Shown here: positions 43,895 to 58,158 of the stretch, one piece after another
Layout: each line of letters starts with the position of its first letter
How positions within the stretch are numbered: position 1 is the first letter of the stretch
NCBI GenBank assembly: GCA_944324075.1
Contig: CALUUZ010000018.1
Location: forward strand, 1-58,158
From: Candidatus Mailhella excrementigallinarum
GTDB taxonomy: Bacteria > Desulfobacterota > Desulfovibrionia > Desulfovibrionales > Desulfovibrionaceae
Direction of reading: 5' to 3'
DNA length: 58,158 nt
Made by a program: the position numbers and the translations under genes
The notes under the pieces: generated by a model
Databases searched by the model: none
What the model was told of the DNA's origin: nothing
Seen by the model: only the letters and a program-made list of their open reading frames with translations

Positions 43895-45114
43895 ACAGTA
43901 TCTGTTGTTCCAGAACCGCTGATTTTCTGAGCAGGCTTGAAGACAGACTATCCCTGGCGGAAGAGCCGGTGCGGGCGGAATACTCCGCCGCCATGAAAGC
44001 CGGGGTTGCTCTGGCTGTACGCCGTACAGTGCTGGAAATGGCCGGACGCCATGCGGATGCGCTGGCCCTGGATGCGGACGAGCGGGAAGAACTGTGTTGT
44101 CTTCTGAGGTCGCCGCGCCTGCGCCTGTATCTTTCCACCAGCTACCGGACGGAAATTGCCCCTGATGCGGAGACTTTGGAAAGGTACGCGCATGAAGCCA
44201 ATCACGCAGCCGCAATACTGACGGGGACGTTGACTCTCTGGGGATACAGCGTCTTTTCCCCTGTTTCCGTGCGTCACGCTCTGGCAAGTCCCTGTGATTC
44301 CCCGGAGCTGCTTGACCATAATGTCTGGCGTCAAAACTGCCTTCCTCTGCTGAGAAACTGGGCGGATCGCCTTCTGCTGCTCACCACACCCGAATGGCTG
44401 GACGATCAGGAAATCAGACAGGAAATTTTTGAGGCCAGGGCTGCCGGGATTCCCGTTCAGGTGCTTTCCGCAGACACGCTTTGTTCAACAACCGGGCAGA
44501 TTCCCTCCGTCCTGGGGACAGCACCGATCTTCCATCTCCATGAAGGCGGGCAGGATATCCAGTTCATCCTGCATGTATACGCGGAACATCTCGGCGTCCC
44601 GCTTCCCCGGTTGGAAGCGCTGGTGGACTGCCTCGGCCTGAAGGCCACGCTCGATCTGCTGGAAGAATGGGGAAACGAGACGCTGAAAAGGGAACTGGAA
44701 CTGTTTGCTCTTCTGTGCGTCCGCAATCTGGAAGCGTATGTCGACTTCTCCCGTGATTTCCCCCGTACCCTGAACGCTCTCAATTTCCGGGCGGATTACC
44801 TGGAGGGCCGTCTCCCCGATGACGATATCGAGGACGCGCCGGACATGCTGGGAGGCATGACGGATGATGCGGAGCTGGAGTACGGGCCGGAAAAATCCCG
44901 TCCGGAGACGCAGGCGGCATATGCCGCGCTTCTCGCCGCACGAGGGGAAGGGGCGGGCGAGGTATTCGAGAGCTGCCTCGGCGTGTTCACGCTCCTGAAA
45001 GATACCGCAGCAAGGGAATCATTCATGGAAGCAGCGAAAAAGGACTTTTTCTCGCGCTTTCCATCCCATAATCGCCCGGAACAGGGCGGCAAGCATGATG
45101 GAGGTCTGTCATGA
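43891..45114 (+). CDS. Protein with DUF1937/nucleoside deoxyribosyltransferase-like domain
   Basis: 407 aa. Residues about 78-193 match the layout of DUF1937 and related deoxyribosyltransferase-like folds: LRLYLSTSY, a long helix, GYSVFSPVSVRHALASP, then NWADRLLLLTTPEWL and a final EIRQEIFEARAAGIPVQVL. These domains bind nucleotides or nucleosides. Flanking regions (1-75 and 200-407) are unlike anything I recognise. The C-terminal part is acidic. ATGA overlaps on both sides tie it to its neighbours. A role in modifying nucleotides during transfer or in defence is possible but unproven. Confidence 0.7.
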   Translation: MNSICCSRTADFLSRLEDRLSLAEEPVRAEYSAAMKAGVALAVRRTVLEMAGRHADALALDADEREELCCLLRSPRLRLYLSTSYRTEIAPDAETLERYAHEANHAAAILTGTLTLWGYSVFSPVSVRHALASPCDSPELLDHNVWRQNCLPLLRNWADRLLLLTTPEWLDDQEIRQEIFEARAAGIPVQVLSADTLCSTTGQIPSVLGTAPIFHLHEGGQDIQFILHVYAEHLGVPLPRLEALVDCLGLKATLDLLEEWGNETLKRELELFALLCVRNLEAYVDFSRDFPRTLNALNFRADYLEGRLPDDDIEDAPDMLGGMTDDAELEYGPEKSRPETQAAYAALLAARGEGAGEVFESCLGVFTLLKDTAARESFMEAAKKDFFSRFPSHNRPEQGGKHDGGLS

Positions 45115-45374
45115 AACACCCCGCGAAGTCCGGGCGGAACAATCCGGCCCGGCATCTGAATCTGGAACGAATCTACAAGTCCAACAATCCCGCCGTAACG
45201 CGGTTCATGGTCAGGTGCATGATGGAAGAGCTGGCGAACGCAAAGCCCGGCTCCGTCAGGGATGCTCTGGCGGCAAGCGACCGGATCGCGCTGCGCACGG
45301 CGAGAGAATTTCCGCATCTGCTGCCGGCTCATCAGCGCGCCCTGCTGGATGAGCAGCAGGCTGCGGCGGTGTAG
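45111..45374 (+). CDS. Hypothetical protein, 87 aa
   Basis: Small basic protein (MKHPAKSGRNNPARHLNLER...), helical-looking, no family recognised. It overlaps the previous stop by 4 bases and is followed after 13 bases by another small gene with a GGGAGGGG ribosome site. Composition matches the GC-rich part of the element. Confidence 0.7.
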   Translation: MKHPAKSGRNNPARHLNLERIYKSNNPAVTRFMVRCMMEELANAKPGSVRDALAASDRIALRTAREFPHLLPAHQRALLDEQQAAAV

Positions 45375-45387
45375 GGAGGGGCCGGAG

Positions 45388-45651
45388 ATGGAGAACCTGA
45401 CCTTTCCTTGGCCCACGCCGGAAGGCGAACGCAACTCCAGCAGGCAGCGCCATGAAAAGCTCCTTGAAGCCTTCTATGGGCCGCTGCCCCAGGCGGTGGA
45501 GGAAGTGCGGAGCGTTTTCGGCAAGTTCGGTCTGACCCAGCGGCAGGCAGCCTGTGTGACGGCCTGCGCCCTGAATCAGATGGCAAGTGTCGATGGAGAC
45601 ATGCCGAACATCGCCACGGTTTCCCTGACTTCGGCCTTGAACTTCCGGTAA
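45388..45651 (+). CDS. Hypothetical protein, 87 aa
   Basis: It starts MENLTFPWPTPEGERN after a GGAGGGGCCGGAG site. The longer frame upstream overlaps the preceding gene and is not used. The middle is helical (EKLLEAFYGPLPQAVEEVRSV), and QRQAACVTACALNQM resembles the helix of a small DNA-binding fold. No family is recognised. It is the last gene of the coupled block. Confidence 0.65.
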   Translation: MENLTFPWPTPEGERNSSRQRHEKLLEAFYGPLPQAVEEVRSVFGKFGLTQRQAACVTACALNQMASVDGDMPNIATVSLTSALNFR

Positions 45652-45892
45652 GTGATCCCGGCTTTCGCCATGAGGATTGAGGATAACACCATGAGTTAAA
45701 CGGAAAAAAGCAAAAACCGGACATCGAAGTACCAATTCAATGCCCGGTTCAGCCTCTGGAGGGGAGACAGAAAACTGCTCTCTCCCAAGGTGGAGTATAC
45801 CTAATGACTTCACCTTACACCCCTTCGATCCCGGCGTCAAGCTTGGGGGGCTGCACTTTTGCCTTTTTTCCAAACCGCAAGGTTGGAAAATT
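45652..45892 (+). promoter_or_regulatory. Control region before the winged-helix gene
   Basis: 241 bases without a gene. It holds weak stems, ACCGG...CCGGT (about 45,717-45,746) and CCAAACC GCAA GGTTGG (45,870-45,886). The second one abuts the ribosome site of the next gene and could hide it. Confidence 0.4.
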
Positions 45893-47029
45893 ATGAAGAC
45901 GATAATTCCGAGCAATTTCCTGCGTGTGAAGCACAAGATTTTCGCGGTGTACGCCGGGCTGGACAAGGAACTGAAGACCGGCCCCACCCTGCTGTATCTG
46001 TGGCTGTATTTCTTCTGTCACGACAAGGATTACTGCTGGCCTTCCCAGAAGCTGCTTTCCGTTCTGTGCAAGACGACAGTCCGGAGCGTTCAGAATCACC
46101 TCGCGGCGCTGGTCAGGCTGGAATATATCGCCGTGGAGCAGCAGGGAACCCGGAACATTTATCGTTTGCTCGAATCGGATCGCGTGCGTCGGCAGATTGT
46201 CGAAGCCGGAATGGAACTGATGGATGACGAAAATTTTTCGCCTTTGAAGCTGAAACTGGCGGAGAGCAAAGGCGAAAAATCTTCGCGTTCCTTATTAAAG
46301 GAATTAAAGAAGAAAGAAGAAGAAATTAATACCCCCCTTTCCCCCCTTGCGCAGACACGACCTTCCGGCTCACGGCATGAACGGGGTGTGTGTCCTTCTC
46401 GTTCTCCTCTTGCGGGAAGCGGAAGGGGGGATTCCTCCGGCTCCGGTCTTCGCCGGAAACTTCAGGACGAGTTCCCCAGACTGTGGGAACTCTGGCCCCG
46501 GAAACAGGATCGTTTCGGGGCGTATCAGGAATATGTGCGCCTGGCGAAGTCCGGTTATCTGCCTCCGCTGGATGAGCTGGTGCGCGTGGTGAAGCGCCTG
46601 ATGGGTGAAGATCGGAGCTGGAAAAAAGGCTATGTCCCGAATCTGAGGTTCTGGCTGCGGGATCGCCGCTGGCTTGATCTGCCCTTCGGCGGGCGGGAGT
46701 CCGCGCCGATGGGTGATGCCGCGTCCGTCAGTCCGCACCTGAGTCCGGAAGAAATGCAGGCAAGGGAACATGCCGTTCTGCGGCGTGTGATTGAACCGGA
46801 CAGGCGATCATGCGCCGGGCCGGAGACCCGGCTCAGGGAAGAGGCGGAAGCGCGGCTCTGCGCCATGTGGCCGCAGGTTCCGCGCGGGATGATCGCGGCG
46901 GGCTTGTGTCTTGCGCGGGGCAGTCTCCATTCCATCGCGGCCCGTCTGACACTCGGCAAGGCGCTTGTGCCGCCGCCCGTGCCGGACGCGCGCTCAATCG
47001 CCAGTCTGCTGCGTGAGGTGGCCGCATGA
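45893..47029 (+). CDS. Winged-helix-type DNA-binding protein, replication or regulation
   Basis: 378 aa. The N-terminal 110 residues have the layout of a winged-helix domain of the kind in plasmid and phage replication proteins: GPTLLYLWLYFFCHDKDYCWPSQKLLS, then a recognition helix CKTTVRSVQNHLAALV and a wing with IYRLLE. A Lys/Glu-rich linker follows, then a C-terminal region starting LQDEFPRLWELWPRKQDRFGAY with Trp-rich motifs. The ATG at 45893 fits the domain start. An open frame of 51 codons upstream has no ribosome site. The stop overlaps trbB by 4 bases. It may initiate element replication or control the trb operon. Confidence 0.65.
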   Translation: MKTIIPSNFLRVKHKIFAVYAGLDKELKTGPTLLYLWLYFFCHDKDYCWPSQKLLSVLCKTTVRSVQNHLAALVRLEYIAVEQQGTRNIYRLLESDRVRRQIVEAGMELMDDENFSPLKLKLAESKGEKSSRSLLKELKKKEEEINTPLSPLAQTRPSGSRHERGVCPSRSPLAGSGRGDSSGSGLRRKLQDEFPRLWELWPRKQDRFGAYQEYVRLAKSGYLPPLDELVRVVKRLMGEDRSWKKGYVPNLRFWLRDRRWLDLPFGGRESAPMGDAASVSPHLSPEEMQAREHAVLRRVIEPDRRSCAGPETRLREEAEARLCAMWPQVPRGMIAAGLCLARGSLHSIAARLTLGKALVPPPVPDARSIASLLREVAA

Positions 47030-48018
47030 GTGATGCCCTCGCGTTCCAGACTTCCTGCCAGACTTCCGGTCAAACATCATGGCAGCGCAATCTTGACGCG
47101 CTGCGGCGTCATGCCGGGCCGCTCCTGCTGGATGCCCTGGCGGATCCGCTGGCCATTGAGGTTGCCCTGAATCCCGACGGTTCTCTCTGGCGTGAACGCA
47201 TGGGGGAAGACATGAGCCGCATCGGGAGCCTGGAAGCATACAAGGCGGAAGCGCTGCTCCGCACTCTGGCCGGGATGCTGAACAAGGTCATCACAGCGGA
47301 TAACCCGCAGTTGGACGGGGAATGGCCGCTGGATGGCTCGCGCTTCTCCGGAGCGCTGCCGCCCGTGGCGGCAAGACCCATGTTTTCCATCCGCAAGCGC
47401 GCCAGCCGGGTGTTCTCGCTGGATGAGTATGTCCAGTCGGGCGTCATGACGGAACGCCAGAAGGAAAAGCTGTGCGAAGCCGTGCGGGATCACCGGAATA
47501 TGCTGGTCATCGGAGGCACGTCTTCGGGCAAGACCACGCTCACAAATGCAATAATCGCGGAAGTTGCCCGGCAGTATCCGCAGGAGCGGCTGATCATCAT
47601 CGAAGACACCGGGGAAATTCAGTGCGCGTCCCCGAATGTCGTTTTCCTTCACACTACTGTGAACGTGAGCATGACGCTCCTGCTCAAGCAGAGCCTGCGG
47701 TTGCGTCCGGACAGGATCCTGGTGGGAGAAGTGCGGGATCATGCCGCGCTTGATCTGCTGGATGCCTGGAACACCGGGCACGAAGGCGGGATCGCCACGC
47801 TCCACGCGAACAGCGCGCGGGAGGGGCTGACACGTCTGCGCGGCCTTGTGACGCGGAACCAGTACGCTCCCGGAGACATTGAGGAGGTCATCGGTCAGGC
47901 CGTGCATTGTCTGGTGTTTTTGCAACGCACCGATCAGGGGCGGCGTGTGCGGGAAATCCTTGAAGTCAGAGGATGGTCACGTCAGGCGCATGATTATGAA
48001 ACCGTGGCTGTGGGGTGA
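47026..48018 (+). CDS. trbB: Conjugal transfer ATPase TrbB (VirB11 family)
   Basis: Hexameric cytoplasmic ATPase that powers pilus assembly and DNA transfer in P-type conjugation. The 330-aa protein has Walker A GGTSSGKT (163-170), the Asp box IIIEDTGEIQC, Walker B-region RPDRILVGEVRD and the His box TGHEGGIATLHANS. It is coupled to the preceding gene by an ATGA overlap. In RP4 trbB is followed by trbC, D and E. Here an AT-rich insert follows. Confidence 0.95.
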   Translation: MSDALAFQTSCQTSGQTSWQRNLDALRRHAGPLLLDALADPLAIEVALNPDGSLWRERMGEDMSRIGSLEAYKAEALLRTLAGMLNKVITADNPQLDGEWPLDGSRFSGALPPVAARPMFSIRKRASRVFSLDEYVQSGVMTERQKEKLCEAVRDHRNMLVIGGTSSGKTTLTNAIIAEVARQYPQERLIIIEDTGEIQCASPNVVFLHTTVNVSMTLLLKQSLRLRPDRILVGEVRDHAALDLLDAWNTGHEGGIATLHANSAREGLTRLRGLVTRNQYAPGDIEEVIGQAVHCLVFLQRTDQGRRVREILEVRGWSRQAHDYETVAVG

Positions 48019-48023
48019 ATGGC

Positions 48024-48533
48024 ATGAAGTATTACTCCAGAAACGGGAAAAGGCTGAATGGCTGGCAGGATGCGGTGAAAAGGCTAAACATCGCCATTAT
48101 GAAACGCTCTTATCCTCATGGAAGATATCAAAATACCATATTGGTTCCTTCCGGAGTTAAAAACAATGAATCAGTAAACTTTCATTGGCTCACCTCATCT
48201 GAACGAAAAGATGTTCCTATTATAATTATATGTGATTGCATAGATGAGAAAGACAAGGAGATGTCAATCCTGTTATATATAAAAATTGGCACAATTACAG
48301 ACTTTACAAATATTTTATCATCAGAAAATGGTGAAACAATATTACTATACAATATGACAATATCATTGAGTCAGTTTGGAATGTTTCTTGGAGGTATGGT
48401 TTCAGACTCTGTTTTTACTTCGACTTCCCTTATAACCAAGGATTGGTATGAGTTAGGTTCAATGACTACCCAAGTTTTTTCTCCATCTTTTGTGATGGAT
48501 AAGCTTTTTAAACTATGTCGTCCCATAACATAA
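48024..48533 (+). CDS. Hypothetical chimeric-looking protein after trbB
   Basis: 169 aa from the ATG at 48024. The first 35 codons (YYSRNGKRLNGWQDAVKRLN) have the GC-rich codon use of the trb operon. From about 48,110 the sequence becomes strongly AT-rich. The 3' 163 bases overlap, on the opposite strand, the better-supported gene 48371-49360. The likely history is an original gene whose 3' part was replaced by foreign DNA. The product may not be functional. No family recognised. Confidence 0.4.
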   Translation: MKYYSRNGKRLNGWQDAVKRLNIAIMKRSYPHGRYQNTILVPSGVKNNESVNFHWLTSSERKDVPIIIICDCIDEKDKEMSILLYIKIGTITDFTNILSSENGETILLYNMTISLSQFGMFLGGMVSDSVFTSTSLITKDWYELGSMTTQVFSPSFVMDKLFKLCRPIT

Positions 48534-49360
48534 AATTCATATCTAGAGTTTTTATTTTTTATGGCAGTATCAATATCGTTTCTTAAATGTCGACAATTTT
48601 TTATTTCATCATAATTAATTAGAATTACAGTTCCAAGTGGGTGATTATTTTCTATGTATTCCTTAGTTTTTACTCCAAATATTATAATTAGATTGTCTCT
48701 ATTCTGTATAAACGATGGAGAATGGTAAATGTATGGATATGTGAACCATGATTTAATATAACCAATATATTTAAATGCCTGCTTATATGTCCATGCATGT
48801 CCTTCTACGGTTAAAGGAGTTTCCAATTGATTTATTTCTTTCAGTTGCAAATAACATCTAACCAGATTCCTCAAGGAATGTGTTACACTTCTACCTCTCA
48901 AAACTTCTTGGATAGGATCTTTTTTTATATTTATTATTTTATTTCTAAAGTCATTATTATTAATTATGGACAAATCTTTAAATTTAAAGTCATCATACAC
49001 GCTTGCAGAGTCGATTGTTTTAAAATCCTTAACAAGATTTCTACTGGTAAATTTAGAATAGTAATTTTTATTGGCAATCACTTTTTCTATAGCATCAGAG
49101 TATGCACATATACTGCATTCTGGAATATGATCTTCTCTTCTATAAGATCTAAAATATGGAGCAATTTTACCAAACTTGTTATGATTTGGTGCCAAAATTT
49201 CGGGATGATTCTTATCTCTGCAATTATCATCTGCGCATTCAAATGTAAATTTATCCAATCCTATATTCATGTTAAAAAATGTTGGCCTAACATCATCTAT
49301 ATAAATACATTCTTTAAGTTCATTGCAGTAGGCATACAAAATACGATTGCTTTCCTTCAT
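48371..49360 (-). CDS. Hypothetical cargo protein with zinc-ribbon-like N-terminus
   Basis: 329 aa, AT-rich and on the strand opposite to all trb genes, so probably acquired cargo. The ATG at 49360 has GGAGAG eight bases upstream. A GTG 17 codons earlier has no site. Residues 38-85 have paired cysteines and histidines (FECADDNCRDKNH, then APYFRSYRREDHIPECSIC). This arrangement is reminiscent of the metal-binding, CoiA-like N-termini of some nuclease or defence proteins. The rest is not recognised, including a central NLVRCYLQLKEIN helix and the late strand LIIIFGVKTK. Function unknown. Confidence 0.6.
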   Translation of the reverse strand: MKESNRILYAYCNELKECIYIDDVRPTFFNMNIGLDKFTFECADDNCRDKNHPEILAPNHNKFGKIAPYFRSYRREDHIPECSICAYSDAIEKVIANKNYYSKFTSRNLVKDFKTIDSASVYDDFKFKDLSIINNNDFRNKIINIKKDPIQEVLRGRSVTHSLRNLVRCYLQLKEINQLETPLTVEGHAWTYKQAFKYIGYIKSWFTYPYIYHSPSFIQNRDNLIIIFGVKTKEYIENNHPLGTVILINYDEIKNCRHLRNDIDTAIKNKNSRYEFYVMGRHSLKSLSITKDGEKTWVVIEPNSYQSLVIREVEVKTESETIPPRNIPN

Positions 49361-49547
49361 TACTTTTTCTCTCCAATAAGACGAAAGTTTATTGAAAAAA
49401 TTGGCTGTCACTTAACATCGAAATTAAGTCTGTTATGCAACCCCCTTTGTTTCTTGGCAATAGAAAATTAAAGTTTCAAATTTCTCTTTTTAATAAGGGT
49501 AAAATTTTCATTATCACACTGAATTAAAAGAAAAAAAGGATTAACTG

Positions 49548-50321
49548 ATGAAAAAAGAATTATTTTCCGCTTTTCTTCTTGGCGTCACCCTTCTTCCCGT
49601 TCCTGCCCACAGCGCCGGGATACCCGTCATAGATGCAACCAACCTTGCCCAGACGACGATCTCCGCAATGGAGGCCGTCAATCAGACATTGAAGCAGATT
49701 GAAGAGTATGCGCTGCAACTCAGGCAGTATGAGGATCAGATCAAGAATACGCTGGCCCCGTCCGCCTACATCTGGTCGCAGGCGCAAAAGACCATGAACA
49801 ACGTCCTCGCCCTCCAGGATCAGCTTGCCTACTACCGCAGGATTGCCGGGAATCTGGACGGGTATCTGGAGAAGTTCGGGAATCCCAATTTTTATCGGAG
49901 TTCCCAGTATTTCTCGGCTCCGTCAGGGGATCCGGCCACGCTGGAAAAACAGCGGCAGGAAGTCATGCAGGCGGAAGAGTGGGGGCTGGAAGCGCAGAAA
50001 AAGACCAATGACAACGTGGCCCGGACGCTGGAACAGCAGCAGGAGGCGCTTGCTCTGGATGCGTCCAGGCTGGAAGAGCTTCAATCCGCAGCACAGACGG
50101 CACAGGGCAGGCTGGAAGCGATCCAGTACACCAATCAGCTTCTTGCCCAGCAATCGAACCAGATGCTCCAACTGCGCGGCGCTCTCATGGCAAAGATGGC
50201 GGCTGATAATGCGAGAGAACAAACAAACGCCGCCCGTGAAGCAAGGGCACGGGCGGCGAATGAAATAACCTTTCAAAATCTGTATGAGAAAAGTCCAGCA
50301 GTAAACTTTAAACTATTTTAA
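49548..50321 (+). CDS. trbJ: Conjugal transfer protein TrbJ (VirB5-like)
   Basis: Periplasmic/surface component of the P-type mating apparatus. The 257-aa protein has a signal peptide (1-22, ending AHS-A), an N-terminal GIPVIDATNLAQTTISAME motif characteristic of TrbJ, and long coiled coils (about 130-230). The last 20 or so residues (from NEITFQN) are encoded by DNA that suddenly becomes AT-rich, as if the 3' end was exchanged. The opposite-strand lipoprotein gene ends within 4 bases of this stop. Confidence 0.88.
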   Translation: MKKELFSAFLLGVTLLPVPAHSAGIPVIDATNLAQTTISAMEAVNQTLKQIEEYALQLRQYEDQIKNTLAPSAYIWSQAQKTMNNVLALQDQLAYYRRIAGNLDGYLEKFGNPNFYRSSQYFSAPSGDPATLEKQRQEVMQAEEWGLEAQKKTNDNVARTLEQQQEALALDASRLEELQSAAQTAQGRLEAIQYTNQLLAQQSNQMLQLRGALMAKMAADNAREQTNAAREARARAANEITFQNLYEKSPAVNFKLF

Positions 50322-50755
50322 AACAGTTCAAAAGCCTTTTCTTCTATTTTTCTTATGGGTGATTTTATGATTGCTTCTACTTCATCGGGAGTTGAACGAA
50401 TAAATTCTTCTCCATTTCCACCTATTGTTCTGAATGAATTTTTCCACCAAATGGCAATCCTGTCATCATTTATAATTTTTATTATATATTCAGGCTGCTC
50501 TTGACCTGAATTGTTTGTATAACCTGCAATATGGTCATTTTCATATTTCCATACAACCTGATCATTTTTAGATTCATCAAATGAAAAAGAGTTTTTTGTT
50601 ATTGTACATGTCTGATATTTATATCCTGTTATATACCATACTTCATTTGTACTCTTCCATGAACCAATAATTTGTTCTGTTTTGTCCGAACATCCAGTAA
50701 TAAAAATGTAAGAGGATAAGAATATGCCAAAAAAAATTTTAGTAACGATTTTCAT
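50318..50755 (-). CDS. Putative lipoprotein between trbJ and trbL, exclusion candidate
   Basis: 145 aa with a lipoprotein signal (MKIVTKIFFGIFLSSYIFITGC, lipobox ITGC, Cys at about residue 22). AAAGGTG precedes the ATG at 50755. The mature part is beta-rich-looking (IGSWKSTNEVWYITGYKYQ; KNDQVVWKYENDHIAGY), like small lipocalin-type proteins. It is AT-rich and opposed to trb transcription. Its start overlaps the trbL start by 32 bases and its stop overlaps trbJ by 4 bases. RP4 encodes its entry-exclusion lipoprotein TrbK between trbJ and trbL. This protein has the same address but no sequence likeness I can see. Confidence 0.7.
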   Translation of the reverse strand: MKIVTKIFFGIFLSSYIFITGCSDKTEQIIGSWKSTNEVWYITGYKYQTCTITKNSFSFDESKNDQVVWKYENDHIAGYTNNSGQEQPEYIIKIINDDRIAIWWKNSFRTIGGNGEEFIRSTPDEVEAIIKSPIRKIEEKAFELF

Positions 50756-51950
50756 AGTTACACCTTTGTTTGTTTTGCTTGTGACACTCAATGCTGATAC
50801 TGCTTTTGCACAACTGTCCAATAGTGGCGTTATGAATACAGTACTTGAGAAGTATAAAACTGCTGCAAGCACTTGGGCAGGAACTATGCAGACTGCCGCT
50901 TCACGTCTTTATATAGCCTTGGCCGCGATCAGTCTAGTGTGGACAATGGGGCAGCTTCCGTTTCACCGTTCCTCCTTTGCTGAATTTTTTGGGGAATTGC
51001 TCCGTTATATAATCTTCACAGGATTCTTTTATTGGTTACTAATAAATGCACCTCAGTTTGCTGAAGCAATAATTGACTCTTTAAGATTGCTCGGTAGTCG
51101 CGCATCAGGGATACCTGAAACACTTCCGTCAGATATAGTTGATATTGGTTTCAAACTTTTTGGACGCGTATGTGAAGAGGCTAAGAATATAAATTTAGAT
51201 AATTTTGGAAGGATATTTTCTGCACTAATATTTTCTACTATGATTCTAGTAATATTAGCCCTTGTAGCTATAAATCTATTATTACAATTTTGTGCAGCAT
51301 GGATTCTAGCATATGCAGGAATATTCTTTCTTGGCTTTGGCGCAACAAGATGGACATCAGATATTGCTATTAATTATTTCAAAACTGTTCTTGGATTAGG
51401 GGCGTCACTAATGACGATGGCGCTTTTAGTTGGTATCGGTATAGATATTATAGATGAAAATATGAAGGCAATGAGTACGGGGCCAGTAAGTATGTTTGAA
51501 CTTGGAGTTGTTCTCGTCTCTGTCATTACCCTCTTCCTCCTTGTCGACAAACTTCCCGCAATGGTGGCGGGCATCATCAACGGTTCGAGCATCGGCGCAT
51601 CAACAAGCATCGGCGCGTTCGGGGCCGGAGCCGCCGTAGGCGCTGCCGGTGTCGCCGCTGGCGCGGCCAAGTTCGGCGGTAAGCTCATTGGCGGTTCCGC
51701 CAGTGCGGCCGCTACCGCCGCAGGCTCTCTCACAAAGGCCGGGGACAGCGCCCTGAACGCCATGCAGCAGGGAACCGGAGCCTTTGCCGGTATGGATCGA
51801 CGGCCCGGCCAGGGAGCGGGCCTGAGCCGTTCCATGGGCATCACTACCGCCTTTGCAACGGAGGTAGGGAAATCTCTCGGCAAACAGGCGGGAGGCGCTG
51901 CGGTGAATATCGCGAAGAGCGCCGCTCAAAAGATCATCGGGGGGAAGTGA
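50724..51950 (+). CDS. trbL: Conjugal transfer protein TrbL (VirB6-like)
   Basis: Polytopic inner-membrane channel component, 408 aa. A signal-like N-terminus (about 1-28, ending TAFA) and about six hydrophobic helices lead into a Gly/Ala-rich tail (from residue 285, GAGAAVGAAGVAAGAAKFGG) typical of TrbL. Codons 1 to about 265 are AT-rich. The rest is GC-rich like trbE, a clear internal switch near 51,520. AGAGGA precedes the ATG. The stop overlaps the next start (TGATG). Mosaic structure suggests recombination that replaced the 5' two-thirds together with the lipoprotein gene. Confidence 0.88.
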   Translation: MPKKILVTIFIVTPLFVLLVTLNADTAFAQLSNSGVMNTVLEKYKTAASTWAGTMQTAASRLYIALAAISLVWTMGQLPFHRSSFAEFFGELLRYIIFTGFFYWLLINAPQFAEAIIDSLRLLGSRASGIPETLPSDIVDIGFKLFGRVCEEAKNINLDNFGRIFSALIFSTMILVILALVAINLLLQFCAAWILAYAGIFFLGFGATRWTSDIAINYFKTVLGLGASLMTMALLVGIGIDIIDENMKAMSTGPVSMFELGVVLVSVITLFLLVDKLPAMVAGIINGSSIGASTSIGAFGAGAAVGAAGVAAGAAKFGGKLIGGSASAAATAAGSLTKAGDSALNAMQQGTGAFAGMDRRPGQGAGLSRSMGITTAFATEVGKSLGKQAGGAAVNIAKSAAQKIIGGK

Positions 51951-52597
51951 TGAACGCCAGAAGACAGGAAGCCGGCGGACTGGCCCGTTATTCCATTTTG
52001 GCGTGTTTACCGGGGGCTGGCCTGTGCGTTGTGTGTACTTCCCTGTTCCTTGTCGGAAATCCGCATCCATGTTCTGCGGGATACCTCACAGGCATGATGA
52101 TGGGCAGCATGGGCGGCATGGACAGCAATGCCAACAGAATTGACGATAATGCTTCTTCGCCGGTCTATTATGTAACAGACGGAAAAACAGGTTCATGGAA
52201 CATATCATATTCCGGCAAACTTGTTATCCCTTCATCTGACGGCATTCTTGAACTCATCTTGTCCCCGGTTGAACGGGCTACATTCAAAAATGGAAAACTC
52301 ATGAGCTATTCATTTTTCAACAATAGAAATGAGAATCTGAGACAAAGAGCATTCATTGAAAATGCGAAAAACATTTATCTGAATCGCCATAATGGAAAAC
52401 TGAGAGGATATCTGTACCATTTTCATAAAGATATGAAAAATGCCGAATTGATAATGATAGAGCGTAAAAAAATTGAAATATCATATTTCCCAGACATGAA
52501 GGAATACCATGTATTTTTCGGAAACATGAGAAATATTGGAATAACTGACTTGCGACATGTTTTGAAAGACTCAGAAAAAACTGGAGAGAACAAATGA
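51950..52597 (+). CDS. Hypothetical membrane-anchored protein, variable patch
   Basis: 215 aa. A GC-rich beginning (MNARRQEAGGLARYS, then one membrane segment CLPGAGLCVVCTSLFLVG and a Met/Gly run GMMMGSMGGMDS) changes after about residue 65 to an AT-rich, charged extracytoplasmic-looking domain (SYFPDMKEYHVFFGNMRN near the end). It is coupled to trbL by TGATG and to the next gene by ATGA. No family recognised. Its place between trbL and trbC and the composition switch mark it as part of an exchangeable patch. Confidence 0.6.
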   Translation: MNARRQEAGGLARYSILACLPGAGLCVVCTSLFLVGNPHPCSAGYLTGMMMGSMGGMDSNANRIDDNASSPVYYVTDGKTGSWNISYSGKLVIPSSDGILELILSPVERATFKNGKLMSYSFFNNRNENLRQRAFIENAKNIYLNRHNGKLRGYLYHFHKDMKNAELIMIERKKIEISYFPDMKEYHVFFGNMRNIGITDLRHVLKDSEKTGENK

Positions 52598-52986
52598 CAA
52601 ACGCCAGAGAAAAGCAGCGTCATGGACGCCATGCGGCAGGATACGGCAAGGCAAGTGATCCAGGAGATGCTGAAAGCGGACTGCTGAGGAATTTGGAAAG
52701 AATGTTCTCACTGGACTACTGGGAGTCTCCGGACAGATTGGGACGCTATCTCCTTTTGGTGTGGGCACTCTGTTTATTATACTTTCTCACTACAGCAGTT
52801 GTCTTTTATGAAGATTGGCGTCTTCTGTTCTCCTTTTTTATTTTAATATTGCCAATAATATTCTTTATGATTTTCATGTTTTTTCGTTTCATGGCATTTT
52901 GCATCGGGCCTGAAATTCTATTACTGGTCAACTTTTTCAAACGAAATATATTATCTGGAAATAAAAAAGAAAGTACGGACTCATAG
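52594..52986 (+). CDS. Hypothetical membrane protein, 130 aa
   Basis: It begins with a GC-rich, hydrophilic stretch (MTNAREKQRHGRHAAGYGKA) that resembles the start of the preceding gene (both have NAR near the N-terminus), then two or three AT-rich membrane segments (YLLLVWALCLLYFLTTAVV; LFSFFILILPIIFFMIFMFF). ATGA overlap with the preceding gene. No family recognised. Confidence 0.6.
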   Translation: MTNAREKQRHGRHAAGYGKASDPGDAESGLLRNLERMFSLDYWESPDRLGRYLLLVWALCLLYFLTTAVVFYEDWRLLFSFFILILPIIFFMIFMFFRFMAFCIGPEILLLVNFFKRNILSGNKKESTDS

Positions 52987-53057
52987 AGTCATATATTCAT
53001 TCCATGAAGTACAGAGACTCTTCAAAACCGTATAAAGATAATACCAAAGGATTCAAT

Positions 53058-53450
53058 ATGTGCATCAGACCCATCCGATACATCACATATAGCGTTTTCC
53101 TCATTCTTGGCGTTCTGTTCGTCCTGTTCATGGCGGCGATCACCTCGAACAATCCGCCTCCCGAACTTGCCGAACTCGCCGGCCACAGGGAACTTGCAAC
53201 CATCATCCGCATTCTTTTCTTTGTTTCGTGCCTGTACGGACTCCTGCAACTTTTCTGGACGGCGCTCGAAAGGGAATCCCAAAAACTTCAAGTACAGCTT
53301 GAAACAAACCTGAAAGACACTCTTTCCGGCTCTGAAAGGCGGAAAAGGAAGGAACGTCAGAGGAAAACATTTGTCCGGCACAAGCGATACAAATGCTCAA
53401 GCCGGAGACACATACACTTCAAACCCATTTCCGGAGTCAGACATGAATAG
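53058..53450 (+). CDS. Hypothetical membrane protein, 130 aa
   Basis: The ATG at 53058 has AAAGGA six bases before it. An earlier ATG (53004) lacks a site. Two membrane helices (YITYSVFLILGVLFVLFMAA; TIIRILFFVSCLYGLLQLFW) are followed by a very basic tail (RRKRKERQRKTFVRHKRYK). The stop overlaps the trbC start by 8 bases. The tail could bind nucleic acid or membrane lipids. No family recognised. Confidence 0.6.
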   Translation: MCIRPIRYITYSVFLILGVLFVLFMAAITSNNPPPELAELAGHRELATIIRILFFVSCLYGLLQLFWTALERESQKLQVQLETNLKDTLSGSERRKRKERQRKTFVRHKRYKCSSRRHIHFKPISGVRHE

Positions 53451-53775
53451 GACGCTGCTTTTCCTTGGAGTTGTTGCCCTGGCGCTGTTCCTGCTGCCGA
53501 TTGACGTTTTTGCCAGCGAGGGAACGGGCGGAGATCTGCCTTATGAGAGCTTTCTGCAGGGGCTGCGGAACAGCATGACGGGGCCGGTGGCCTATACCAT
53601 CTCCCTGGTTGCCATAGTCGTGTCGGGCGCGACACTGGCATTCGGCGGAGATATCCAGGGCTTTGCCCGTACCCTTCTGATGCTTGTACTGCTCATCGGG
53701 ATCATCATCGGCGCAAACGCCATGATGTCGGGATTCTTCGGCAAGGGCGCACTCATCACGGCGGGAGTGATGTAA
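53443..53775 (+). CDS. trbC: Conjugal transfer pilin TrbC (VirB2-like)
   Basis: Pilin subunit precursor, 110 aa, with a signal sequence (about 1-24, ending VFA) and two hydrophobic helices (VAYTISLVAIVVSGATLAFGG; LMLVLLIGIIIGANAMMSG), the expected VirB2/TrbC layout. TrbC pilins are cyclised in RP4. The ATG at 53443 has GGAG six bases upstream. The stop overlaps the trbD start (TAATG). Confidence 0.85.
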   Translation: MNRTLLFLGVVALALFLLPIDVFASEGTGGDLPYESFLQGLRNSMTGPVAYTISLVAIVVSGATLAFGGDIQGFARTLLMLVLLIGIIIGANAMMSGFFGKGALITAGVM

Positions 53776-54074
53776 TGGCGCTGCACTCCACGCCGATCCA
53801 CCGCTCGCTCGTCCGTCCCCTGCTGCTTCTGGGCGGGGATCGGGAGCTTGTACTGCTGTCCGGCCTTCTGTCCGGGGCGCTGATCTTCACGTCCATGACA
53901 TGGTTTTCCGCCGTATACGGCCTGCTACTGTGGTTCGGCGGGCTGGCCATACTGCGGAGCATGGCAAAGGCCGATCCGCTGATGCGTAAAGTGTACCTGC
54001 GGCACCGCCTGTACCGGAAATACTACCCGCCGCGCTCAACGCCCTGGCGTGTGAACAGAAGGCCGTACCTATGA
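53775..54074 (+). CDS. trbD: Conjugal transfer protein TrbD (VirB3-like)
   Basis: Small inner-membrane protein, 99 aa, which works with the TrbE ATPase. It has a short N-terminal HSTPIHRSLVRPLLLLGGDRE motif typical of the family, two membrane segments and a basic tail (YLRHRLYRKYYPPRS). Overlaps both neighbours (TAATG, ATGA). Confidence 0.88.
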   Translation: MALHSTPIHRSLVRPLLLLGGDRELVLLSGLLSGALIFTSMTWFSAVYGLLLWFGGLAILRSMAKADPLMRKVYLRHRLYRKYYPPRSTPWRVNRRPYL

Positions 54075-56632
54075 TCATCACGCTGCTGTCCATCGGGATC
54101 GCCGTACTCGGCCTTGTCCTGTTCGCCGTGCTGACAGGGCGCATCCGCGAAGCAGGGGACATGGTGAAACTCAAAAGACACCGCTCGGCAACAGCCGGAG
54201 CTGCGGATCTGCTGAACCCCGCCGCCGTGGTGGAGGACGGGATCATTGCCTGCAAGTCCGGGGCGCTGATGGCCGCATGGATATATGAAGGAGACGATCT
54301 TGCTGCCAGCACGGACACGGATCGCAACCACGTTGCCGCCGTCATCAATGCGGCGCTGGGCGGTCTGGGCGACGGATGGATGATCCATGTGGACGCCGTG
54401 CGGCGGGAATCTCCGGCCTATATCGCGCCCGGCGTCTCGCACTTTCCCGATCCTGTGTCCGCAGCCATAGATGAAGAGCGCCGCCGCTTTTTCGAGAATC
54501 AGGGAACCATGTATGAAGGATACTTTGTCCTCACGGCCACATGGTATCCGCCGCTGCTTGCCCAGACAAAATTCACCGAACTCATGTTCGATGACGATAC
54601 GGAACGCCCCACACTGGAAGCGCACTATTCCCGGCTGCTGGAACAGTTCAAAAAATCTCTGCAAACGCTTGAATCCCGCCTGTCCTCCGTGTTCCGCATG
54701 GAGCGTCTGGGAGCGCAGCGCTGCATCTGCGAAGATGGAACGGAAGCGACGTTTGATTACTTCCTTTCCCATCTCCAGTTCTGCGTTACCGGCATCCGCC
54801 AGCCGATCCGGCTGCCTTCGACTCCGGTGCATCTGGATGCGCTGCTCGGCGGGCAGGAGCTGTACGGCGGGGTTATCCCGAAAATCGGGAGACATTTCAT
54901 CCAGGTGGTGAGCATCGAGGGATTTCCCCAGGACAGCTGCCCCGGAATGCTGTCGGTTCTCACGGATCTTGACATGGAATACCGCTGGTCAACCCGTTGC
55001 ATTTTTCTGGATCGCCATACCGCCAATGCCCACATAAAAACTTATGAAAAAAAATGGAGTCAGAAACAGCATGGACTCGTTGATGTGGTCTTCCGCAGAC
55101 AGAAGGAACCGAATGAAGATGCCCTGAATATGACAAAAGATTCCGAAGCAGCAACGAGCGAAATCGAGAGCGGAGTTGTTGGCGGGGGATACTACACAAG
55201 TGCTGTCATCCTGATGAATGAGGATCGGTCTCGGCTTGAAGCCGCCGCACTGAAACTCCAGAAGACGATATTCAACCTCGGCTTTGCCGCGCGCATCGAG
55301 ACGCTGAACACGCTGGACGCATGGATGGGAAGTATCCCCGGCCACGGCGTGGAAAATGTCCGCCGCCCGATCCTGAACACGCTCAACCTGGCGCACCTGC
55401 TGCCCGTCTCCAGCATCTGGACGGGGGAAAACGCCGCGCCCTGCCCGTACTATCCGGCAAACGCTCCGGCGCTCATGTACACAGTGACAACCGGGCACAG
55501 CCCGTTCCGGCTGAATCTGCATGTCCGTGATCTGGGGCACACGATCATGTTCGGCCCCACGGGGGCGGGCAAGTCAACCGCGCTTGCCACTCTGATTGTC
55601 CAGTTCCTGCGCTATGAGGGCATGACCGTTTACGCCTTTGACAAGGGCATGTCGCTCTATGTGCTGACACGGGCCTGCGGGGGGCGGCACTACATGATTT
55701 CCGGGGACAGGGATCCTCTCAGGTTCGCGCCGCTGCAATATCTGCAATCTTCCGGGGATCGCACATGGGCGGCGGAATGGCTGGAAAGCGTTCTGGAACT
55801 GAACGGCGTGACGGCCACTCCCGCGCAGCACAATGAAATTGTGAGAACATTGATCAACATGGCCGGAAGCGGAGGGAAAAGCCTGACGGAGTTTGTGGCT
55901 CTGGTGCAGGATGCGGAAATCCGCGAAGCCCTCAAGGGTTATACCGTGGACGGCGGCATGGATTTGCTGGACGCGGAAGAGGACGGGCTGAGTCTGGAGC
56001 AGTCCCTGCACCTTGTCACATTCGAGTTTTCCGAACTCATGGAGCGCGGCCAGAAATGGGCATTGCCGGTGATGCTCTACCTGTTCCGGCGGATTGAAAA
56101 ATCCCTGAAGGGGCAGCCCGCCATGATCGTGCTGGATGAAGCATGGAGCATGCTCGAACATCCCGTGTTCTCGGCAAGGCTGCGGATGTGGCTGAAGGAA
56201 ATGCGCAAGCTGAACTGCCTTGTCCTCATGGCTACGCAGGCGCTTGAGGATTTGGCGAATACCACGGCGGCTCTGACCGAAACCATAGTACAGTCCACGG
56301 CCACAAAAATCTGTCTGGCCAACAGGAACGCCCGCACGGCTCCGGCGCTGTACCAGCGCCTGGGCTTCAACGAACAGCAGATTGCAATCATCTCGTCCTG
56401 CACGCCCAAGAGCGACTATTACCTGATGTCCGACAAGGGCAGCCGCCTTTTTTCCCTGGCGTTGCAGCCTCTGGCTCTGTCCCTGGTCGCGGCAGGCGAC
56501 CGAGACACCGTACTGCATGTTCAGGAGCTTGAAAAAGTGTGGGGCGAGTTGTGGCTTGAAAAGTACCTCGCGGAAAAGGGACTCGACCTGAAAGACTTTC
56601 AGACCCCGGAAACACGGGAAGGAGCCATATGA
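54071..56632 (+). CDS. trbE: Conjugal transfer ATPase TrbE (VirB4 family)
   Basis: Largest ATPase of the mating apparatus, 853 aa. It has an N-terminal membrane segment (2-22), the CagE/TrbE/VirB N-domain (about 170-450), then Walker A GPTGAGKS (495-502) and Walker B AMIVLDEAWSML near residue 684. ATQALEDLANT and the FGPTGAGK context match the family. A short segment near codons 310-375 is lower in GC than the rest. ATGA overlaps on both sides. Confidence 0.95.
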   Translation: MIITLLSIGIAVLGLVLFAVLTGRIREAGDMVKLKRHRSATAGAADLLNPAAVVEDGIIACKSGALMAAWIYEGDDLAASTDTDRNHVAAVINAALGGLGDGWMIHVDAVRRESPAYIAPGVSHFPDPVSAAIDEERRRFFENQGTMYEGYFVLTATWYPPLLAQTKFTELMFDDDTERPTLEAHYSRLLEQFKKSLQTLESRLSSVFRMERLGAQRCICEDGTEATFDYFLSHLQFCVTGIRQPIRLPSTPVHLDALLGGQELYGGVIPKIGRHFIQVVSIEGFPQDSCPGMLSVLTDLDMEYRWSTRCIFLDRHTANAHIKTYEKKWSQKQHGLVDVVFRRQKEPNEDALNMTKDSEAATSEIESGVVGGGYYTSAVILMNEDRSRLEAAALKLQKTIFNLGFAARIETLNTLDAWMGSIPGHGVENVRRPILNTLNLAHLLPVSSIWTGENAAPCPYYPANAPALMYTVTTGHSPFRLNLHVRDLGHTIMFGPTGAGKSTALATLIVQFLRYEGMTVYAFDKGMSLYVLTRACGGRHYMISGDRDPLRFAPLQYLQSSGDRTWAAEWLESVLELNGVTATPAQHNEIVRTLINMAGSGGKSLTEFVALVQDAEIREALKGYTVDGGMDLLDAEEDGLSLEQSLHLVTFEFSELMERGQKWALPVMLYLFRRIEKSLKGQPAMIVLDEAWSMLEHPVFSARLRMWLKEMRKLNCLVLMATQALEDLANTTAALTETIVQSTATKICLANRNARTAPALYQRLGFNEQQIAIISSCTPKSDYYLMSDKGSRLFSLALQPLALSLVAAGDRDTVLHVQELEKVWGELWLEKYLAEKGLDLKDFQTPETREGAI

Positions 56633-57324
56633 AACTGTTCGACAAGGCAAAGGAACCCGCGCGGGATAATCCCTATCTGAACGCGCGCCGGGTGTGGAAT
56701 GCCCATGAAGGGGAAATCCTGTCCTCACGGCGGACATGGCAGATCATCGGGATTCTGAGCCTGCTGATCGCCCTGAGCGCGGTCGGCGGCATCGTTTACA
56801 TCGGGCAGCAGTCAAAATTCATCCCGTATGTGGTGGCCGTGGACAAGCTGGGAAACGCGGCGGCGATATCCCGCGCGGATCGCGCGGCTCCGGTAGACAG
56901 CAGGGTCATGCAGGCGACGCTTGCCGCGTTTATCAACGATGCGCGGCTGGTCACGCCGGATGTCGCCGTACAACGGGCGGCAATATTCCGCCTGTACGCG
57001 CATCTGGCCCCCAGGGAGCCCGCCACGCTCAAGATGACGGAGTTCCTGAACGGCTCGGAAGACGCGAATCCGTTCAACCGGGCGGCAACCGAAACCGTGC
57101 ATATCGAAATCACATCGGCGCTGCCTCAGTCCGCCGAGACATGGCAGATCGACTGGATCGAGGAAACCCGGAACCGGGAGGGAGCCTTGAAACAGTCCGT
57201 GCGGATGCGGGCGCTGGTGACGGCGTATGTGGCTCCTCCGGACAACAGGACGGGAGAAGAGCAGATCCGCCGCAATCCTCTGGGAATATTCGTCCGGGAT
57301 TTCTCCTGGGCCAAGCAGTTGTGA
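56629..57324 (+). CDS. trbF: Conjugal transfer protein TrbF (VirB8-like)
   Basis: Inner-membrane scaffold protein, 231 aa: short cytoplasmic N-terminus (KEPARDNPYLNARRVWNAHEG), one membrane helix (about 36-58) and a periplasmic VirB8-like domain with FIPYVVAVDKLGNA at its start. It overlaps trbE by 4 bases. The next gene begins 7 bases after it. Confidence 0.92.
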   Translation: MKLFDKAKEPARDNPYLNARRVWNAHEGEILSSRRTWQIIGILSLLIALSAVGGIVYIGQQSKFIPYVVAVDKLGNAAAISRADRAAPVDSRVMQATLAAFINDARLVTPDVAVQRAAIFRLYAHLAPREPATLKMTEFLNGSEDANPFNRAATETVHIEITSALPQSAETWQIDWIEETRNREGALKQSVRMRALVTAYVAPPDNRTGEEQIRRNPLGIFVRDFSWAKQL

Positions 57325-57331
57325 GGAAGGA

Positions 57332-58158
57332 ATGAAAGCCGCTTACCTGCTGATGACCGCCGTTCTTGCATCCGGCTGTGCGCTGCATGGCGCATCGACG
57401 GGCACATCCACGGACGGCTTCGGAAACCAGTATCAGGGCGATGTCCGCTATCTTGCCGATGCCGCCGCCGAAGCGCTGGAACAGCGCTACCCTCCGGCAC
57501 ATACCAGTGTGCTGCTGCTCCGTGTCCCCGGCCAGTTCGGGGAATATCTGGAATCCTCCCTGCGCCGCAGGGGCTATGCCGTGACGCAGAATCCGGAGTC
57601 ACGGGCCACCGCGCGTATCAGATACACTGCGGATATCCTTCCGGATGAGTGGCAGCAGCCTGCCGGATACGCCAGCATCCAGACGGATGACGGCCAGCAT
57701 TTCAGCTTTGTGCGCCGCCTGCATGATGAAGAACTGCCGCCCGCCACATATGCCGATGTTTCCCCGGCTCTGGCCGAACCGTTGTCGCCCCTGCCGGGGC
57801 GTGAAGAAAAGGTGACGCCGGAAAAGGAAAGTCCGGCGCCTTCCCCGGTTCCACCGGGGCCGAAGGTCATGCTGCGTGAAGGCGTCCTTGCCAGCCTGCC
57901 GCGCGGCTGGAAGTACACCATTCCCAATGCCGACAAGCGGACAGTGAGCGTTCCGGCGGCTTCGTCCGGGGACTGGCGGGAACGGATTTCCGTCATGGCG
58001 GAAGCGGCGAACTGCCGGGCCTCGTTTGATGAGACGGCCCGCCGCGTTTCGCTGCTGGATGCCCCCGTACCTGCTCCGGAACCAGTCCGGACAGCGGCAA
58101 AAACCGGGTCGGAGAACACCGCCGTTTCCACCGCGCTGCATGAAATCCATCCCGAACC
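57332..58158 (+). CDS. trbH: TrbH-like conjugal transfer lipoprotein, incomplete at window edge
   Basis: An open frame of at least 275 codons runs off the right edge. It starts ATG after GAGGAAGG and has a lipoprotein signal (MKAAYLLMTAVLASGCALHG, Cys at residue 16). Position after trbF and the LASGCAL lipobox suit a TrbH-type protein. It is longer than RP4 TrbH, with a Pro-rich linker (about 165-195) and a C-terminal part (DWRERISVMAEAANCRASFD) that looks like the small domains of TcpQ/secretin-associated proteins. It may combine TrbH with an outer-membrane assembly domain. trbG and trbI are expected to follow. Confidence 0.65.
   Translation, partial: MKAAYLLMTAVLASGCALHGASTGTSTDGFGNQYQGDVRYLADAAAEALEQRYPPAHTSVLLLRVPGQFGEYLESSLRRRGYAVTQNPESRATARIRYTADILPDEWQQPAGYASIQTDDGQHFSFVRRLHDEELPPATYADVSPALAEPLSPLPGREEKVTPEKESPAPSPVPPGPKVMLREGVLASLPRGWKYTIPNADKRTVSVPAASSGDWRERISVMAEAANCRASFDETARRVSLLDAPVPAPEPVRTAAKTGSENTAVSTALHEIHPE

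Follow-up and report, generated by a model that had tools for sequence, protein, structure and literature searches.

Antisense lipoproteins between trbJ and trbL in Desulfovibrionaceae elements: candidate entry-exclusion proteins with C termini that resemble the tail of their own VirB5 homolog

The closest described counterparts of the locus considered here are the TrbK and EexN entry-exclusion proteins of conjugative plasmids. A recipient that expresses either trbJ or trbK of RP4 on its own is protected from being killed by the RP4 apparatus (PMC11045733), and the C terminus of TrbK from pKPC_UVA01 is essential for exclusion (PMC8923210). TrbJ is a homolog of VirB5, which forms the tip of the pilus (PMC12624023) and is seated on VirB6 (PMC9259494), the homolog of TrbL. 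We analyzed a contig of 58,158 nucleotides from "Candidatus Mailhella excrementigallinarum" (Desulfovibrionaceae; GenBank assembly GCA_944324075.1, contig CALUUZ010000018.1), the whole of which is called the window, in which a lipoprotein gene lies between trbJ and trbL on the opposite strand. In many relatives, this lipoprotein copies the C-terminal tail of TrbJ, a feature missed by a preliminary description of this DNA. We consider it probable, though well short of certain, that the product of the gene is an entry-exclusion lipoprotein of the TrbK/Eex functional type and that the exclusion protein acts as a membrane-anchored decoy of the VirB5 (TrbJ) tail.

Relatives were collected by running TrbJ profiles against two overlapping sets, 288 genomes from the family and 348 from the order. 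From 108 open reading frame (ORF) matches, 77 distinct TrbJ ORFs were kept, some of them partial or broken; duplicates, matches with E values above 1e-10, and ORFs shorter than 170 amino acids or without a stop codon were dropped. An antisense lipoprotein was called by its lipobox, its hydrophobicity, and a stop codon placed between −10 and +40 bases relative to that of trbJ, with the sequence of the tail ignored. Such a gene was found beside the trbJ stop in 34 of the 77 loci; under a narrower lipobox rule, which was widened after LQGC boxes had appeared among the antisense genes, the count was 25 of 77. When a local, gapped score over the last 25 residues was calculated for 23 representatives with less than 75% TrbJ identity, the lipoproteins scored 45.4 against their own TrbJ and 17.2 against non-cognate TrbJ, and none of 50,000 permutations reached the cognate value (maximum, 30.3). 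The own TrbJ was the top scorer for 14 of the 23 representatives, and scores lay above the 99th percentile of non-cognate scores for 13 of the 23 (18 of 34 loci overall). The narrower set of 18 representatives gave 48.1 for cognate and 16.5 for non-cognate pairs (0 of 20,000 permutations), with no signal in the control TrbJ segments at −75 to −50, −50 to −25, and −150 to −125. In these 18, a small signal also came from the N-terminal 25 residues of the mature lipoprotein (22.7 versus 16.0; 2 of 20,000 permutations); we ascribe it to very short mature proteins in which the two segments overlap.

At locus L034, the lipoprotein ends in ESRYEGSTGRGWTAF and TrbJ in ESRYEGSSGRGWTAF; the corresponding ends are LLERASKMEQRKTF and LLERASQMEQRKTF at L049 and GVSAETAKKMPDNSF and GVSAETAKPMPDNSF at L105, and SDYPVTSNNF is common to both ends at L060. 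The mature L049 lipoprotein, at 23 amino acids, is barely more than the tail. Across 23 pairs scoring at least 29, residues identical between the two tails numbered 235, Met and Trp excluded, and used the same codon in 82 cases, compared with 89.0 expected from codon usage; because synonymous codons are random, it is the peptide that is conserved and not the DNA. The resemblance was also kept where the two genes do not overlap (L036, L047, and L059) and at L114 (genome G152, C65), where a sense-strand lipoprotein gene lies upstream of trbJ and the two products end in GFEDFKNLKPTPHKGY and, for TrbJ, GLEDFKNLQPTQHKGF. Across the class, the analysis thus showed that the two tails resemble each other, that the resemblance is on average specific to the element, and that it is maintained at the protein level. 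As a separate observation from the survey, two tandem trbL genes encoding 365 and 669 amino acids follow straight after trbJ at L033 (9678-12784; genome G159).

Sense-strand TrbK and EexN proteins of classical plasmids showed the same trend. From 27 plasmid regions taken, 21 records were used in 22 trbJ/trbK rows; rhizobial and IncP plasmids related to each other are among them, and pLBC62 supplies two rows; L163 (near-duplicate of L159), L166 (proteins identical to those of L162), and L168 (near-duplicate of L167) were dropped, as were L169, L171, and L172, where the place of trbK holds no annotated gene. Cognate pairs scored 44.5 and non-cognate pairs 19.9 (0 of 20,000 permutations), three control segments carried no signal, and in 21 of the 22 rows the TrbK tail, compared with full-length TrbJ, matched best at a site ending no more than 5 residues from the C terminus. 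TKPTPIGTYQN is common to the TrbJ and TrbK ends in Sphingobium, and TSGGEKMKVEW ends both proteins of Sinorhizobium meliloti pB (L186), with TrbJ ending in MEPRW and TrbK in M(R/K)PRW in related plasmids. In R388, TrwJ ends in GMPTIQ and EexN in GMPKIR, a match equaled by 0 of 90 non-cognate tails; the RP4-type ends (SYRASPSKTW and GFKPSEKKEW) scored 28. pLBC62 (L181, 1565-1950) carries two adjacent trbK genes, the first without a TrbJ-like tail and the second with one (score 62).

In the window, the lipoprotein gene does occupy the place of trbK, as the preliminary description had it, between genuine trbJ and trbL genes. A second element with the same layout is present on contig C39 of the same genome, the window itself being contig C18. 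The features of the locus are as follows.

49548-50321, + strand: trbJ, encoding a VirB5 homolog of 257 amino acids (NCBIfam TIGR02780, above cut-off)
50258-50318, + strand: variable C-terminal tail of TrbJ, ending SPAVNFKLF (DNA identity to C39 stops at 50257)
50318-50755, − strand: antisense lipoprotein of 145 amino acids with a GxWKS body, the proposed exclusion protein (homologs at the same antisense site)
50321-50356, − strand: C-terminal end of the lipoprotein, RKIEEKAFELF, the place of the TrbJ-tail copy in relatives (own match weak)
50724-51950, + strand: trbL, encoding a VirB6 homolog of 408 amino acids (Pfam PF04610, E value 1.4e-29; NCBIfam TIGR02783, above cut-off)
50832-51016, + strand: conserved island within the AT-rich tract (78-88% identical to C39)
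50982-51143, + strand: TrbL residues 87-140, co-varying with the TrbJ tail across loci (partial Mantel scan)
51243-51512, + strand: TrbL residues 174-263, a differently derived tract by comparison with C39 (third-position identity, 0.11-0.38)

Also correct in the earlier account were the 32-base overlap of the lipoprotein gene with the trbL start and the extent of an AT-rich tract (50258-51510) comprising the last ~20 trbJ codons, the lipoprotein gene, and two-thirds of trbL. The tract has a GC content of 0.349, whereas the trbJ body (49600-50257) has 0.576 and the 3' part of trbL (51511-51950) has 0.643; GC as low was found in 777 of 56,905 overlapping 1253-bp windows of the contig, and the left edge of the tract coincides with the end of a DNA block aligned to C39. 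The lipoprotein has a predicted signal peptide and an ITG^C lipobox by sequence pattern, AAAGG stands 7 nt upstream of its ATG, and its gene overlaps trbJ by 4 bases at convergent stops. A promoter independent of trb, proposed earlier from the reversed orientation, found no support: the interval 50200-51200 holds 1 sigma-70-like site, inside the lipoprotein gene, against 3.7 expected from shuffled sequences. AlphaFold2 models were poor for the lipoprotein alone (mean predicted local distance difference test score, 45.7; strands followed by two C-terminal helices) and for TrbJ modeled with one relative (55.9), in which the final ten residues scored below 50 and were unstructured.

The trb operon contains three AT-rich accessory slots, namely the lipoprotein tract and two others at about 47.9-49.8 kb and about 52.0-53.3 kb. 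The first of the extra slots (48069-49560) holds an antisense gene of 330 amino acids, and C39 has a different 134-amino-acid protein there; the last (52030-53070) holds genes of 216 and 130 amino acids, and C39 has nothing. For the 330- and 216-amino-acid proteins, Pfam and NCBIfam gave nothing above cut-off, and PADLOC run on six proteins gave no match.

The window lipoprotein matched no NCBIfam family at E values up to 1 and, in Pfam, only DUF3892 (E value 0.13, below cut-off), and it had no plasmid tblastn match at E values up to 1. By the marks of the TrbK sequence family, it has neither the profile match nor the strand of trbJ and trbL. A profile built from the window and C39 lipoproteins matched those of L124 (E value 9.5e-16), L045 (1.6e-8), and L130 (0.001). 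In these relatives with a GxWKS body, the ends PLNEYPSLF and VLNEYPDLF scored 51 at L130, NDDGF is present in both lipoprotein and TrbJ at L124 (0 of 90 non-cognate tails as good), and LTSKADPF stands against LNSKADPF at L045. At L045, L107, L108, and L113, a GxWKS body at the same antisense site carries an apparent ordinary signal peptide without a lipobox. Body, site, and orientation suggest that the window gene belongs to the class, and whether it has a tail copy of its own is uncertain. Resemblance within the window pair is limited to FKLF in TrbJ and FELF in the lipoprotein, and the decoy of this element would be short or degenerate.

Comparison with C39 showed how the locus may vary between elements, with the caveat that it rests on one close pair. 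DNA blocks aligned at 44039-48069 (82%), 49571-50257 (88%), 50832-51946 (73%), and 53074-58156 (85%). The TrbJ body is kept and its last ~20 residues are not, and the two lipoproteins share 30% of residues at the same antisense place. In 30-residue windows, TrbL identity is 90-97% in residues 56-100, 21-60% in ~101-188, 77-93% in 174-233, 53% at 234-263, and then 63-100% up to residue ~382. Third codon positions at conserved residues of TrbL 174-263 (five windows) agree in 11-38% of cases, compared with 77% in trbB and trbE, and GC content at third positions (GC3) across these residues is 0.10-0.33 in the window element and 0.57-0.63 in C39; this is the signature of a recombinant tract, with differently derived DNA ending near 51510. 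Within the AT-rich tract, 120-column windows starting at 50836-50956 retain 78-88% identity to C39, and this conserved island indicates that the tract is a mosaic and not one uniformly foreign block. The preliminary description had proposed an allele cassette, to be recognized by conserved flanking genes around a lipoprotein and TrbJ and TrbL parts that vary together. That pattern was found in C39, where 82-88% flanks enclose a divergent lipoprotein, TrbJ tail, and TrbL stretches at ~101-188 and ~234-263; uniform divergence, which would have counted against the proposal, was not seen, the left breakpoint at 50257 being sharp. The part that did not survive is the single block: the comparison speaks for exchange of alleles, though not as one intact cassette. 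Scans of viral contigs with TrbJ and TrbL gave no close relatives, nor did tblastn of phages with TrbJ. Distant blastn matches in plasmids comprised 47 records, of which those listed cover 5% of the query, within trbJ; a scan of genome contigs gave one locus, L017, in which trbJ and trbL overlap with no insert; and a phylum-wide search matched 4 of 395 genomes at an E value of 1e-12, the own genome included, none of them closer (locus L178 was left out of the analysis).

A possible partner of the tail was sought in TrbL by a partial Mantel scan of 53 dereplicated TrbJ/TrbL pairs (of 72) that allows for TrbJ-body and whole-TrbL distances. Distance between TrbJ tails correlated with that between TrbL segments in residues 87-140, with a peak at 105-128 (rho, 0.318; family-wise P value, 0.0005). 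A weaker correlation involved residues 27-56 (P = 0.0085; best rho, 0.195), and segments that begin at residue 123 or beyond fell short of significance (P ≥ 0.08). Most of residues 87-140 falls where TrbL differs between C18 and C39. On this covariation, the docking site of the tail would most likely be the TrbL (VirB6) surface around residues 87-140.

We propose that the exclusion protein consists of a membrane anchor with a spacer or small domain and that many members of the class finish in a copy of their own TrbJ tail. Displayed from the recipient envelope, the decoy tail would fill the docking site that the TrbJ tail of an incoming donor needs, and the cognate machine, with that site occupied, would be unable to switch to DNA delivery. 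Joint change of the tail, the lipoprotein end, and the TrbL stretch would create new exclusion groups. The protection given by RP4 trbJ or trbK singly and the essential C terminus of TrbK, described above, agree with such a mechanism. As to where the decoy would be displayed, Asp is at position +2 in 2 of 34 mature lipoproteins, so that by the Escherichia coli Lol rule most would reach the outer membrane. RP4 TrbK, in contrast, is reported to reside in the cytoplasmic membrane (PMC11045733).

A number of observations weigh against the decoy mechanism. Among the antisense loci, 16 of 34 fall below the 99th percentile, with L097, L103, L117, L123, L136, and L138 indistinguishable from background, and several TrbJ groups (KPDPF, GPEPLGF) lack a matching lipoprotein within 8-20 kb; no relocated mimic with a matching tail was found in 20 regions of 8-20 kb around trbJ, L114 being the sole case of a gene elsewhere. 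The pair from the window scored 17 and that of C39 16 by the gapped score, at the non-cognate mean of 17.2, and in an end-anchored test 3 of 89 non-cognate tails were as good for the window, which is marginal, and 23 of 88 for C39, which is null. For the plasmids, the R46 match is marginal, being equaled by 8 of 90 non-cognate tails, that of Nitrosomonas is null (73 of 90), and the own TrbJ was the top scorer in only 6 of the first 14 rows because relatives share tail types, a sister tail often scoring higher among IncP plasmids. Phylogeny is not fully removed by the permutation in the Mantel scan, and binding of the tail to TrbL stands as a statistical link only. We know of no exclusion assay for these antisense lipoproteins. 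The exclusion protein of pKPC_UVA01 is reported to act on plasmids of the IncP and IncN groups as well and to be required in donor cells (PMC8923210), neither of which is predicted by a strict cognate decoy; these two points and the 6 of 14 plasmid rows slightly lower our confidence in the decoy reading. Its extension to a general rule is favored by a slight balance only: exclusion proteins of VirB5-bearing systems (IncP and rhizobial TrbK, IncW EexN, perhaps IncN EexN, and the Desulfovibrionaceae antisense lipoproteins) would be decoys of the VirB5 tail that evolve with the tail and the VirB6 docking surface, hence their recognition of cognate donors.

Two other explanations are improbable to a similar degree. 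The tail may instead bind a receptor that belongs to the recipient host, and the lipoprotein would mask that receptor to hide the cell from incoming tips. VirB5 at the pilus tip is thought to meet the recipient (PMC12624023), and a mimic could mask such a receptor, but two elements in one host genome carry different tails, and the tail co-varies with the TrbL of its own element. Alternatively, the tail copy may work in the donor or resident cell, where it would compete with or chaperone its own TrbJ on TrbL, for control of assembly or prevention of self-attack, with exclusion as a by-product. The tail would fit its own TrbL best, recipients are protected by either trbJ or trbK of RP4 (PMC11045733), and TrbK of pKPC_UVA01 is reported to be needed in donor and recipient alike (PMC8923210); however, trbK is dispensable for transfer of pKPC_UVA01 (PMC8923210) and, in RP4, for killing (PMC11045733).

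It is slightly less probable still that the lipoprotein, the TrbJ end, and part of TrbL moved as one block, with tail mimicry not being the mechanism. The sharp left breakpoint and the low third-position identity in TrbL 174-263 would fit a block, but not the conserved island inside it, and mimicry was seen across the class. Doubtful too, and ranked below the block, is that an insertion slot has taken up the window lipoprotein as unrelated cargo that has no exclusion function and ends in FELF by chance. The two other accessory slots do hold unlike genes, its own tail match is at background, and it matches no TrbK profile; however, C39, L124, L130, and L045 carry members of its body family in the corresponding position and orientation, and 3 of these 4 resemble their own TrbJ tail. 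A DNA effect behind the shared ends, such as a palindrome at convergent gene ends serving as a two-way terminator, was rejected as extremely improbable, since codon identity is at chance and the non-overlapping antisense genes, sense-strand L114, and sense trbK match too, although the 4-base overlap with the trbJ stop in most antisense genes partly forces the final Phe.

If the decoy mechanism is correct, a copy of the VirB5 tail would name a ligand for a plasmid barrier that has been described as lacking a known target, in the form of a short, testable peptide. It would account both for the essential role of the TrbK C terminus and for the protection that TrbJ gives to recipients, and it suggests a way in which exclusion groups become diverse. 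A tail peptide that blocked cognate transfer would be a lead for the inhibition of conjugation. No statement that exclusion proteins copy the VirB5 tail was found in the full-text literature searched, in the portions available, and an earlier mention in print may exist. Entry exclusion is a known kind of function; the antisense arrangement and the principle of a tail decoy would be new.

Among described systems, TrbK of IncP (RP4/RK2 and R751 types) and rhizobial plasmids is, like the window protein, small and membrane anchored and encoded between trbJ and trbL, and its C-terminal tail resembles that of its own TrbJ, as in the antisense class. Its gene has the orientation of trbJ and trbL, whereas the window gene is antisense, overlaps both neighbors, and encodes a body of ~120 residues. 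EexN of IncN (R46) and IncW (R388) is likewise a lipoprotein encoded between virB5 and virB6 homologs but on the sense strand, and its tail match in R46 is only marginal. In Gram-positive bacteria, ICEBs1 pairs the exclusion factor YddJ with ConG, a VirB6-like target, and is not known to have a VirB5. The F (TraS/TraG), SXT/R391 (Eex/TraG), and IncC (EexC/TraG) systems share with the class a recipient factor, specificity groups, and a VirB6-like target encoded next door (PMC11493245). The exclusion determinants of F and SXT/R391 are reported to be cytoplasmic (PMC11493245), unlike the lipoproteins described here, and the F system has no VirB5 (PMC12857230).

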